In this document: positions 32,021 through 35,097 of the stretch, one piece after another | Layout: each line of letters opens with the position of its first letter | How positions within the stretch are numbered: position 1 is the stretch's first letter | From: Nitrososphaeraceae archaeon | GTDB taxonomy: Archaea; Thermoproteota; Nitrososphaeria; Nitrososphaerales; Nitrososphaeraceae | Assembly (NCBI GenBank): GCA_016782225.1 | Contig: JADDOW010000001.1 | Coordinates: 1-36,307 of the forward strand | Length of the DNA stretch: 36,307 bases | Direction: 5' to 3' | The notes under the pieces: model-generated | Told to the model about the DNA's origin: nothing | Database searches by the model: none | What the model saw: only the letters and a program-made list of their open reading frames with translations | Translations under genes and position numbers: made by a program

Positions 32021-32416
32021 TTATAATAAAATGCCCGGAAAGCCCGGTAGCATTATTAAATACCGAATGTAGCGGACAAGCATAGAGGCCTTTGGAGCCT
32101 TTGACCCCAGTTCGAATCTGGGCCGGGCTACTGCCATTATAATTGGTTTTGAATAAGAAATATTGGATTTTCTATTGATACTCGAAGAAATTGTTATGAT
32201 ATTTTCATTGTCTTGGATCTTGTCTGCTGGCTCAATGATTTGACTATCCCTAAAAACTGTATACACTTTCTCATTTACTGTATACAGTTTCTTGTCTATG
32301 CCATAATGAATATTGCAGGTGTTGCAATAGTAGCCTATTTTCTTAAGGGAACTATTCATCCCTTCCCGGATATAGGTAGAGTTGATGCCATGGTGACAAT
32401 TTTGGCATTTGGTCAT
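32021..32416 (-). CDS. Zinc-ribbon ORF whose 3' end runs into the antisense of tRNA-Gln
   Basis: A 131-codon frame. The first ~90 residues look protein-like: a zinc ribbon with C4, C7, C31 and C34 (CQNC ... CNTC), then KLYTVNEKVYTVFRD. The last ~35 codons (from AVARPRFELGS on) are simply the complement of the tRNA-Gln gene and its leader, so they are not a natural protein end. Most likely the original end was lost when DNA joined at the tRNA 3' end, or the frame is a relic. A weakly supported gene. Confidence 0.4.
   Translation of the reverse strand: MTKCQNCHHGINSTYIREGMNSSLKKIGYYCNTCNIHYGIDKKLYTVNEKVYTVFRDSQIIEPADKIQDNENIITISSSINRKSNISYSKPIIMAVARPRFELGSKAPKASMLVRYIRYLIMLPGFPGILL
32041..32130 (+). 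tRNA. tRNA-Gln (anticodon UUG) with a 17-nt insertion before the D-arm
   Basis: Acceptor AGCCCGG pairs with CCGGGCT and discriminator A follows; CCA is not encoded. T-arm CCCAG-TTCGAAT-CTGGG and anticodon arm GAGGC-CTTTGGA-GCCTT give anticodon TTG. The D-arm TGT-AGCGGACAA-GCA is intact, but 17 extra nt lie between position 8-10 and the D-stem. The insertion lets CGGTA pair with TACCG around an 11-nt loop. Removing 17 nt leaves a normal 73-nt tRNA. The exact borders are ambiguous by about 2 nt; keeping G at position 10 makes the intron 32051-32067. It is a non-canonical intron candidate. Confidence 0.9.
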
Positions 32417-32550: not shown

Positions 32551-32644
32551 GGCGGCCGTATGGCCGCTTCTAATCCATAATATCAATAATCCTACTTTCA
32601 CTCATCCAAGCATCATGCACTTAATCAAAAATTCTTTTTGTTGG
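32551..32644 (+). repeat. Diverged direct repeat, copy 1, led by a GGCGGCC palindrome
   Basis: Begins with GCGGCC-GTAT-GGCCGC (perfect 6-bp arms), then TAATCCATAATATCAATAATCCTACTTTC in pieces shared with copy 2 at 32937, including the common ATCAATAATCCTA and ACTTAATC blocks and a final TGTTGG. Confidence 0.6.
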
Positions 32645-32772
32645 CAGACTTGATTGTATTGATTCATTCTGTTAGTTCACAATAACCTAAGTGGGGTAAT
32701 CCCTCTATCTAATATGGTTATTATAAAATACATTAACCTGTCAGCCAATTGGGTTAAGTGGTAATTGCCATT

Positions 32773-32911
32773 ATGTCAGGGATGTCATAGATGTCATGGT
32801 TTTTGCAACTGTTGTTCTATTTTCAATTGGCATATCATGTTGGCCTATGGTTAGCATTTGTTTTGTAGAAACAACAGTACGGAAATCCCTGACATCCCTG
32901 ACATCTATGAC
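32773..32911. repeat. Inverted array of 9-nt repeats with conserved spacer and box
   Basis: Left arm: three contiguous 9-nt units ATGTCAGGG, ATGTCATAG, ATGTCATGG (32773-32799), an 8-nt spacer, then ACTGTTGTT (32808-32816). Right arm, read on the minus strand: GTCATAG (partial unit), ATGTCAGGG, ATGTCAGGG (32911-32887), an 8-nt spacer, then ACTGTTGTT (32878-32870). The arms face each other across 53 nt. Both arms share unit length, unit count, spacer length and box. Iteron-type replication origin, partition site or a multimeric regulator operator are all possible. Confidence 0.8.
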
Positions 32912-32936
32912 GGACTAATGTCGAGCCCTGGCATTC

Positions 32937-33036
32937 GGCGGCCAATATGGCCACCGCCGCTAACCCACAAAATCAATAATCCTATTTTCTCCTTCACACA
33001 TTCCGACTTAATCTTAATCTAAAGTCCATTGTGTTG
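32937..33036 (+). repeat. Diverged direct repeat, copy 2, led by a GGCGGCC palindrome
   Basis: CGGCGG / CCGCCG arms around GGCC-AATAT-GGCC (32936-32959), then TAACCCACAAAATCAATAATCC and the ACTTAATC and TGTTGG blocks also found in copy 1. It lies directly right of the 9-nt repeat array. Confidence 0.6.
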
Positions 33037-33074
33037 GTGCAATTGGTTCTAGGGTGTATTAAGTAAAATAGAAT

Positions 33075-33081
33075 GGCGGCC
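33075..33081 (+). repeat. GGCGGCC heptamer at the integrase truncation point
   Basis: A single GGCGGCC followed by ACAACTACTGAC without a clear palindromic partner. It starts 12 nt beyond the stop that ends the integrase relic. Confidence 0.4.
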
Positions 33082-33092
33082 ACAACTACTGA

Positions 33093-33791
33093 CTATCTGT
33101 GGAACATCAGAACAGGGTGTTGTTCATCAAAAATTGGGATTATGTGTTTCCATTTTAGATAATCAAATGCGCCCACTCTCATACCAGAAGAAACCATCAA
33201 TAGGACAATTGGTTTAATCCTCTTGTCTGGAAACTCCAGCAGTTTTTTAATTTCTTCAACTGTAGGCACCCTATACTCAGAAAAATGCTGCCAGCAGGAA
33301 GGCTTTTTTAATAATCTTCCATTTTACTTCAATTTCATTCATTTCACAAAACAACTTAATTGCCTTAATATAATTTGAAATTGTTGATTCCACTATCTCT
33401 TTTTTGGCAGCTCTTTCCTTTTGAAATTGAAGAAATCTCACTAATTGAAGGGTAAGCCATTTTGGGTTTTCTGATGCCTGATGATAAAAACAAATCGCCT
33501 TGTTTTCAAATGAGCCTTCCAGTTTTAGAAAATCAAAGAAAACCTCAAGTCTTTTAGGATATTGCCTCTTTGTTTCAGGGGCCTTTAATGCAATCATAAA
33601 ATTGGCCACAGGGTCGGCATAATAATCACCATCATCTTTGTATGCACCATCACTTTCTATTTCTTTTACGTCTATTTTATTATCTAAATTTTCAATTCCT
33701 GCTTAGCCTGCATTTCAGGCAACTCCTTCTTACTATTGTTGGCTTTGGGCCTATAAATATAATCAAATTTGTAATGGGCTGAGTCGGACAT
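33093..33791 (-). pseudogene. Broken tyrosine recombinase (integrase) of Nitrososphaeria type
   Basis: Three reading frames join to one integrase. Frame 1 starts at ATG 33791 (MSDSAHYKFDYIYRPKA) and stops after 34 codons. A shift leads into the SAM-like core-binding domain (ALKAPETKRQYPKRLEVFFD, SESTISNYIK-like [25 protein letters not shown]). A second shift near 33290 leads into the start of the catalytic domain, [20 protein letters not shown] and [17 protein letters not shown], which holds the first catalytic Arg. It stops at 33093, so the HxxR and Tyr parts are missing. It lies about 1 kb from tRNA-Gln, a usual target, and must be inactive. Confidence 0.8.
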
Positions 33792-33823
33792 ATATCAAAT
33801 TTGTATGTAACCTATTTGATATA
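33791..33823 (-). promoter_or_regulatory. Operator-like inverted repeat over the integrase promoter
   Basis: TATATCAAAT (33791-33800) and ATTTGATATA (33814-33823) are perfect 10-bp inverted arms separated by 13 nt. The distal arm provides a TATA-like sequence 23-32 nt upstream of the integrase ATG and the proximal arm overlaps that start codon, as expected for a leaderless promoter under repression. Confidence 0.5.
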
Positions 33824-34602: not shown

Positions 34603-35097
34603 ATGGGCCAAATACAAGATGTGTTTAATTCAAATGAAAAATACGTTAAGGACTATAGGTATTCGCATCTGAAACCAATGCCTTCAAAAAAAATCGCGGT
34701 ATTGGCTTGTATGGATGCCAGGTTGTTGATTGAGGATATACTTGGGTTAAGCATAGGGGAAGCAAACATAATAAGAAACGCAGGGGGCATAGCGACAGAG
34801 GACGCAATGCGTTCTCTCATAGTATCCCATGAGCTCTTGGGAACTGAAGAGTTTATCGTCATAAACCATACTGACTGCGGAATGCAAAAATTCTCAGATG
34901 AACATATCCGTAACAACATCAAACAAAAGTACAACAAGGACCCAAGTGAATTGCAATTCTACACATTTGCTGACCTGGAGGAAAATGTTAGGCAACAGGT
35001 TGAAAAGATAAAGACAAATCCATTCATTCCAAAGGACATCCCAGTATATGGATGCGTTTATGATACACAGACAGGAAGGCTAAGGAGAATAGTGTGA
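34603..35097 (+). CDS. Beta-class carbonic anhydrase
   Basis: A 164-residue beta-carbonic anhydrase interconverting CO2 and bicarbonate. Zinc ligands are C36 (ACMDARL, with the D38/R40 dyad), H89 and C92 (NHTDCGM); IRNAGGIATEDAMRSL follows the dyad as in the compact Cab-like archaeal/actinobacterial group. There is no signal peptide, so it is cytosolic. Its codons look somewhat richer in AGG, GAC and AAC than the left-hand genes, and it is isolated among relics of a mobile element, suggesting acquisition by transfer. An AT-rich TTTAATTAAA at 34560-34569 may be its TATA box. Bicarbonate supply would suit an autotroph fixing carbon by the hydroxypropionate/hydroxybutyrate route. Confidence 0.92.
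   Translation: MGQIQDVFNSNEKYVKDYRYSHLKPMPSKKIAVLACMDARLLIEDILGLSIGEANIIRNAGGIATEDAMRSLIVSHELLGTEEFIVINHTDCGMQKFSDEHIRNNIKQKYNKDPSELQFYTFADLEENVRQQVEKIKTNPFIPKDIPVYGCVYDTQTGRLRRIV

Follow-up and report, generated by a model that had tools for sequence, protein, structure and literature searches.

The locus considered here raises the question of what a mirror-arranged array of 9-nt repeats represents in the genome of a Nitrososphaeraceae archaeon. In the stretch of DNA analysed (the window, 36,307 nucleotides), direct reading gives a left arm of three 9-nt iterons (32773-32799, + strand), i.e. ATGTCAGGG, ATGTCATAG and ATGTCATGG, starting at 32773, 32782 and 32791, respectively, followed by an 8-nt spacer, TTTTTGCA (32800-32807, +), and a box, ACTGTTGTT (32808-32816, +). 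A 53-nt centre (32817-32869, no strand) separates this box from that of the right arm, which on the - strand has the same sequence, ACTGTTGTT (32870-32878, read from 32878 to 32870), and is followed by a second 8-nt spacer, ATTTCCGT (32879-32886, -), and three further iterons (32887-32913, -), from outer to inner CCGTCATAG, ATGTCAGGG and ATGTCAGGG, the outermost occupying 32913-32905. The mirrored array, its 8-nt spacers and its identical boxes 53 nt apart are thus as described in the original prediction. Three units per arm are also present, but the proposal that all six are ATGTCANNN does not hold, since only five are, the outermost right unit being CCGTCATAG, with the array ending at 32913. 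The outer CCGTCA unit is present also in the intact arrays of G000:C118 (G000 being the host genome), G009 and G004, so its presence does not reflect decay.

The array is genuine and well beyond chance. Its inverted tandem 9-mer score is 7/9, compared with a shuffle mean of 2.2, and none of 300 dinucleotide shuffles equalled it. With up to two mismatches allowed, the three-unit pattern has seven matches in the 2.6-Mb genome, four of them within the array copies in C22 and C51; a reversed control pattern had no matches across the same genome at the same tolerance. A change in strand-composition skew around the array, for which the original prediction had suggested looking, is not evident.

The surroundings of the array are those of an integrated element in decay. 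A tRNA gene at its 5′ end (approximately 32041-32130, +) is recognised by Rfam RF00005 (32066-32122, E 4e-4), with its ends set by eye; ARAGORN gave no call for this gene, even with introns allowed. Duplicates of the tRNA 3′ end, 42-98 nt long and in one case 3.5 kb away, are found in G008, G010, G012, G013, G014 and G017, and by this pattern of duplicates the gene is an integration hot spot. On the other side of the array is a broken tyrosine-recombinase (integrase) gene (33080-33793, -), the translation of which is frameshifted and missing the catalytic C-terminal half, with matches to PF00589 (E 5e-4) and phrog_1 integrase (E 2e-5). The proposal of a decayed integrated element is therefore supported by the tRNA attachment hot spot and the broken integrase. 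A tblastn search of the window for a replicase gene or a recognisable remnant of one gave none (best E 0.005, off target).

The diverged direct repeats said to flank the array are also real (83% identity over 36 nt), but belong to a separate dispersed family, termed R, the first copy starting with the GC-rich hairpin GGCGGCCGTATGGCCGC (32553-32700, +) and the second having GGCGGCCAATATGGCCACC as its hairpin (32943-33075, end approximate, +). Repeat R is about 100-150 nt long, with a GC-rich hairpin start (GGCGGCC...GGCCGCC) and then a conserved TAACCCATAAAATCAATAATCC stretch, and resembles a hairpin element of the MITE or IS200 type. The array is accompanied by R in C51 and G013:C158 as well; further copies of R lie in G000 (C16, C31, C60, C91 and C105) and G014 (C111, C140, C204 and C256). 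In G000, C60 23555-26098 (L027) and C105 15352-18429 (L025) are identical over the 420 nt compared, R flanks included, reflecting either a recent duplication or an assembly artefact.

Such a setting might suggest that the array itself marks the end of a mobile element or serves in its recombination, e.g. as a transposon end, att or res site, given that the orphan copies described below are dispersed, that three loci have them together with the hairpin repeat R, and that one lies beside a broken integrase. The att core, however, is the tRNA 3′ end, which is unlike the array sequence, neither a clean empty site nor a target duplication came to light, and arrays linked to replicase genes are located at the 3′ end of those genes. 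A recombination site is accordingly highly improbable. Nor does the array fit the specific case of a tyrosine-recombinase attachment site, because the att duplicates match the tRNA 3′ end and not the array.

What the array represents is most clearly indicated by its relatives next to genes for D5-type primase-helicases. A D5_N search across the family of the host genome gave 29 genes in 19 of 70 genomes, of which 22 keep their 3′ end, and the region from -30 to +420 of the D5 stop codon was scored for an inverted tandem 9-mer pair with a cut-off of at least 6/9. Such a pair lies behind 13 of the 22 genes, compared with 0 of 670 control windows from the same loci. The signal is unique to period 9, other periods (6-8 and 10-13) being found behind only 0-2 of the 22 genes, and to the inverted arrangement, as the direct arrangement with period 9 was found behind none of the 22. 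The score was devised after the first arrays had already been seen, and it is therefore the controls, i.e. other periods, direct orientation and other windows, that carry weight rather than the score itself; the per-locus shuffle p-values at the D5 loci cannot fall below 0.01, as each locus was given only 100 shuffles. Inspection by eye adds arrays in G059, G065, G004 and G009, each arm with three units and minor irregularities. In the 19 hand-curated D5-linked arrays, the by-eye curation of which was not blind, there are two to three units per arm (five in one), and the inner gap has a median of 80 nt, with 16 of the 19 falling within 64-94 nt.

The unit sequence varies by lineage (e.g. TGTCAGGG, TGTCCCTA, TGTCTTAA, TGTTCCTA and CGTCCAGC, among others), whereas period, inversion and gap are constant, a pattern which would be expected of a binding-site geometry co-evolving with its cognate protein. 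Iteron similarity follows replicase similarity (Mantel p = 0.001), a relation without specificity for the C-terminal DNA-binding domain (partial p = 0.066). Individual loci are informative. In G006:C8 the final codons for a 774-residue Prim-Pol + D5_N + DUF5906 + Pox_D5 protein already contain the start of the array. In G006:C2, GTGTCATGG GTGTCAAGG GTGTCAAGG is followed by TTCTTCTT and then by ACTGTTGTT, 158 nt behind the D5 stop codon; this locus, the closest intact relative, reproduces the window layout exactly, with the box, and joins it to a complete replicase gene. The D5 gene of the host genome itself (C118) has CCGTCACGG TTGTCACGG TTGTCATGG with an inverted partner. The proposals of a protein-binding geometry and of an iteron origin are thus well supported, in that the layout is found together with a single family of replication genes, those of the D5_N primase-helicases.

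Two further observations concern replication genes and repeats of this kind. A PriX-domain primase-like gene (L033, 8670-9704, -) follows the D5 gene and array in G006:C8. Metagenomic viral contigs L050 (3178-3394), L056 (10519-10735), L046, L049, L051 and L055 carry TGTCAGGGT triplets, which in L050 are inverted, about 165 nt apart, and upstream, rather than downstream, of a PriCT_2 + D5_N + DUF5906 gene. No relatives of the G006:C2 replicase were found in viral contigs.

An operator or partition centre, with the arms bound by one of the element's regulators or partition proteins, would also be compatible with the layout, inverted tandem sites with unconserved spacers being typical of operators and centromeres too. 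In the genomes of the family, however, the arrays lie 3′ of the replicase and not upstream of an operon, no partition gene adjoins them among the neighbourhoods read, and the counterpart in the Sulfolobus plasmid pRN1 is required for replication itself (PMC4234260). This reading is consequently very improbable, and neither the partition centre nor the recombination site, both options of the original prediction, gained support.

In the window the array stands apart from any replicase while its cousins adjoin the 3′ ends of D5 genes, and in this sense it can be termed an orphan. Comparison of the copies places it in a group of orphans from five species, the arms of which are decaying independently. 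In the same genome a copy in C51 is 84% identical over 420 nt and a core-only copy is present in C89, and four other members of the host's genus (G009, G013, G014 and G015) have related arrays with no replicase close by. The 53-nt centre is partly conserved in the core-only copies G000:C89 and G014:C4 (78%). In the best-preserved orphan arms the three units are followed, after 7-8 nt, by ACTGTTGTT or a close variant of it, and in the G014 and G009 orphans the box lies at the identical 8-nt distance. The exact layout with the box has three matches in 84,980 GTDB genomes, all in unrelated bacteria and at about the chance expectation, so the box is confined to near relatives. The exact layout was not found among viral contigs, nor did plasmid and phage DNA show any similarity. 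Empty sites of the orphan copies were not found in relatives, the flanks being too diverged.

A carbonic anhydrase gene lies near the orphan array both in the window (34603-35097) and in G014:C139 (3339-3833); the sequence from gene to array differs between the two despite the common gene, and a shared integration neighbourhood or cargo is possible. Elsewhere, G005:C5 67944-68074 contains a long perfect tandem of at least 14 copies of the 9-nt unit TGTCACTGC, which is perhaps coding.

Another alternative is a cruciform/hairpin origin or a terminator, with base-pairing of the arms under selection and the 9-nt repeats a by-product. Folded as DNA, the 156-nt strand reaches -27.1 kcal/mol (z -5.2), and the authors who mapped the pRN1 origin described it as a stem-loop without iteron structure, a stem mutation being rescued by a symmetry-restoring change (PMC4234260). 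A hairpin, however, would not need the 9-nt tandem period within its arms, which 13 of 22 D5 genes show, as against 0-2 of 22 for other periods. Moreover, arms often differ in the number and order of their units, with unpaired or different units (e.g. 3+5 in G006:C8 and 3+2 in G000:C118). In the C51 orphan the left arm has decayed without matching changes in the right, which is unchanged, implying that selection for pairing is not holding the orphan arms together. The original prediction expected a genuine layout to keep its unit count and spacing in other genomes and its arms not to drift independently; the former is borne out, whereas the orphan arms do drift, in a manner that fits decay of the orphans and not selection on a hairpin. 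Pairing as the sole explanation is hence rather unlikely; in view of the good folding and the symmetric rescue in pRN1, a cruciform may nevertheless act alongside the iterons.

Taken with the hot-spot tRNA gene, the broken integrase, the lack of a replicase and the flanking R copies, the array can be read as the leftover origin of a decayed element. Comparative sequence evidence makes it very probable that it is an orphan iteron-type origin of an integrated plasmid-like element with a PrimPol-D5 (superfamily 3) primase-helicase as its replicase. Compared with an origin of the pRN1 type, the window array has the two inverted arms of tandem 9-nt units and an inner gap, 87 nt between the innermost units of the two arms, that falls in the range of about 60-95 nt (the D5-linked median being 80 nt and pRN1 having 62 nt). 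Its cousins adjoin the 3′ end of a gene for a D5-type replicase, which the window copy does not, and the centre of the window array, at 67% AT in a window of about 67%, is not more A+T-rich than its surroundings.

In the intact element we infer that the replicase would bind the 9-bp iterons of both arms via its C-terminal DNA-binding domain, with one complex per arm and the complexes facing each other, and would assemble as two helicase rings, such that the 64-94-nt centre would be melted and replication primed there. Binding, melting and priming are here read across from work on SCCmec Cch2, SaPI, P4 and pRN1. The window copy, presumably once an origin, would be inactive unless a replicase acts in trans. 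It is conceivable, though decidedly unlikely, that the orphan arrays are instead replicase-free satellites, often joined to R, that spread by replicating in trans on the D5 replicases of other elements, or host decoy origins soaking up replicases.

The orphan-origin reading connects a repeat array that had lacked an explanation with a single family of replication genes, and supplies a search rule, i.e. to look for inverted pairs of 9-nt iterons downstream of D5-type primase-helicase genes, as well as a means of spotting remnants of vanished elements. It also provides a candidate origin for genetic tools in ammonia-oxidising archaea.

The closest known systems are the Sulfolobus islandicus plasmids pRN1, pRN2 and pHEN7. 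Experiments placed the pRN1 origin in a region of 100 nt lying 54 bp 3′ of orf904; this region, together with the replication operon, is sufficient for replication (PMC4234260). Its arms are TATGTCCAT AGTGTCCAA, inverted and 62 nt apart (7/9, none of 300 shuffles equal), and the same layout with other units is present in pRN2 (6/9, p = 0.007) and pHEN7 (7/9, p = 0.003). The original prediction, that no described archaeal origin has this layout, was thus mistaken in substance, given that the mapped pRN1 origin has it, albeit published as a stem-loop. That stem-loop can now be reinterpreted as an iteron pair, which differs in sequence between the compatible plasmids pRN1 and pRN2, so that the recognition of origins and the incompatibility of archaeal PrimPol replicons become open to direct tests. 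The differing units in pRN2 and pHEN7 fit the published remarks that no part is less conserved than the origin region and that pRN1 is compatible with pRN2. All three plasmids resemble the window in having two inverted arms of tandem 9-nt units, 60-65 nt apart, with a TGTC-type core in the units of pRN1 and pHEN7, and their arrays follow the PrimPol-D5 replicase gene on its 3′ side at a distance of 57-85 nt; they differ in having two units per arm rather than three, no ACTGTTGTT box, and a replicase that is present.

The layout is not universal among such replicons. The strict 9-nt inverted model does not describe pSSVx or pIT3, the latter having TGTCCA repeats in direct orientation, and the 'stem-loop' of phage BIP-1 has no 9-nt pair. 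Background or near-background scores come from haloarchaeal plasmids, phages of Vibrio (two) and Microbacterium (one), a Streptomyces plasmid and the majority of the phylum's other D5 genes. Outside the archaea, the layout is found in Salinibacter pSR11, the replicase of which has weak Toprim signals and DUF5906 but no detected Prim-Pol, and in Lactiplantibacillus PLA6; these cases suggest that the helicase half, rather than the type of primase, may set the array layout. A classical RepA-type iteron origin, with direct iterons of 17-22 bp beside a RepA-type initiator, does not match the 9-nt units, the inverted arms and the linkage to a PrimPol-D5 gene.

Thaumarchaeota tRNA-integrated elements with primpol-S3H replicases have been described (PMC6563490), the parts of that account consulted describing neither an origin layout nor orphan origins. 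The phage P4 alpha protein is a multifunctional primase-helicase binding repeats via a winged-helix domain, as far as cited in PMC4234260; it differs in having a Toprim-type primase and different repeats, and is likened by description. SCCmec Cch2 is a D5_N-type helicase, the C-terminal domain of which binds direct repeats just 3′ of its own gene, these, and not inverted ones, being needed for binding (PMC7581432). Cch2 and SaPI Rep are bacterial and are likened to the window by description, not sequence; the likeness is that iterons lie immediately downstream of an initiator helicase of the D5_N type or a related one (PMC7581432), and the three 5-nt iterons reported within a 23-bp stretch (PMC7581432) imply, by our arithmetic, a period of 9 bp.
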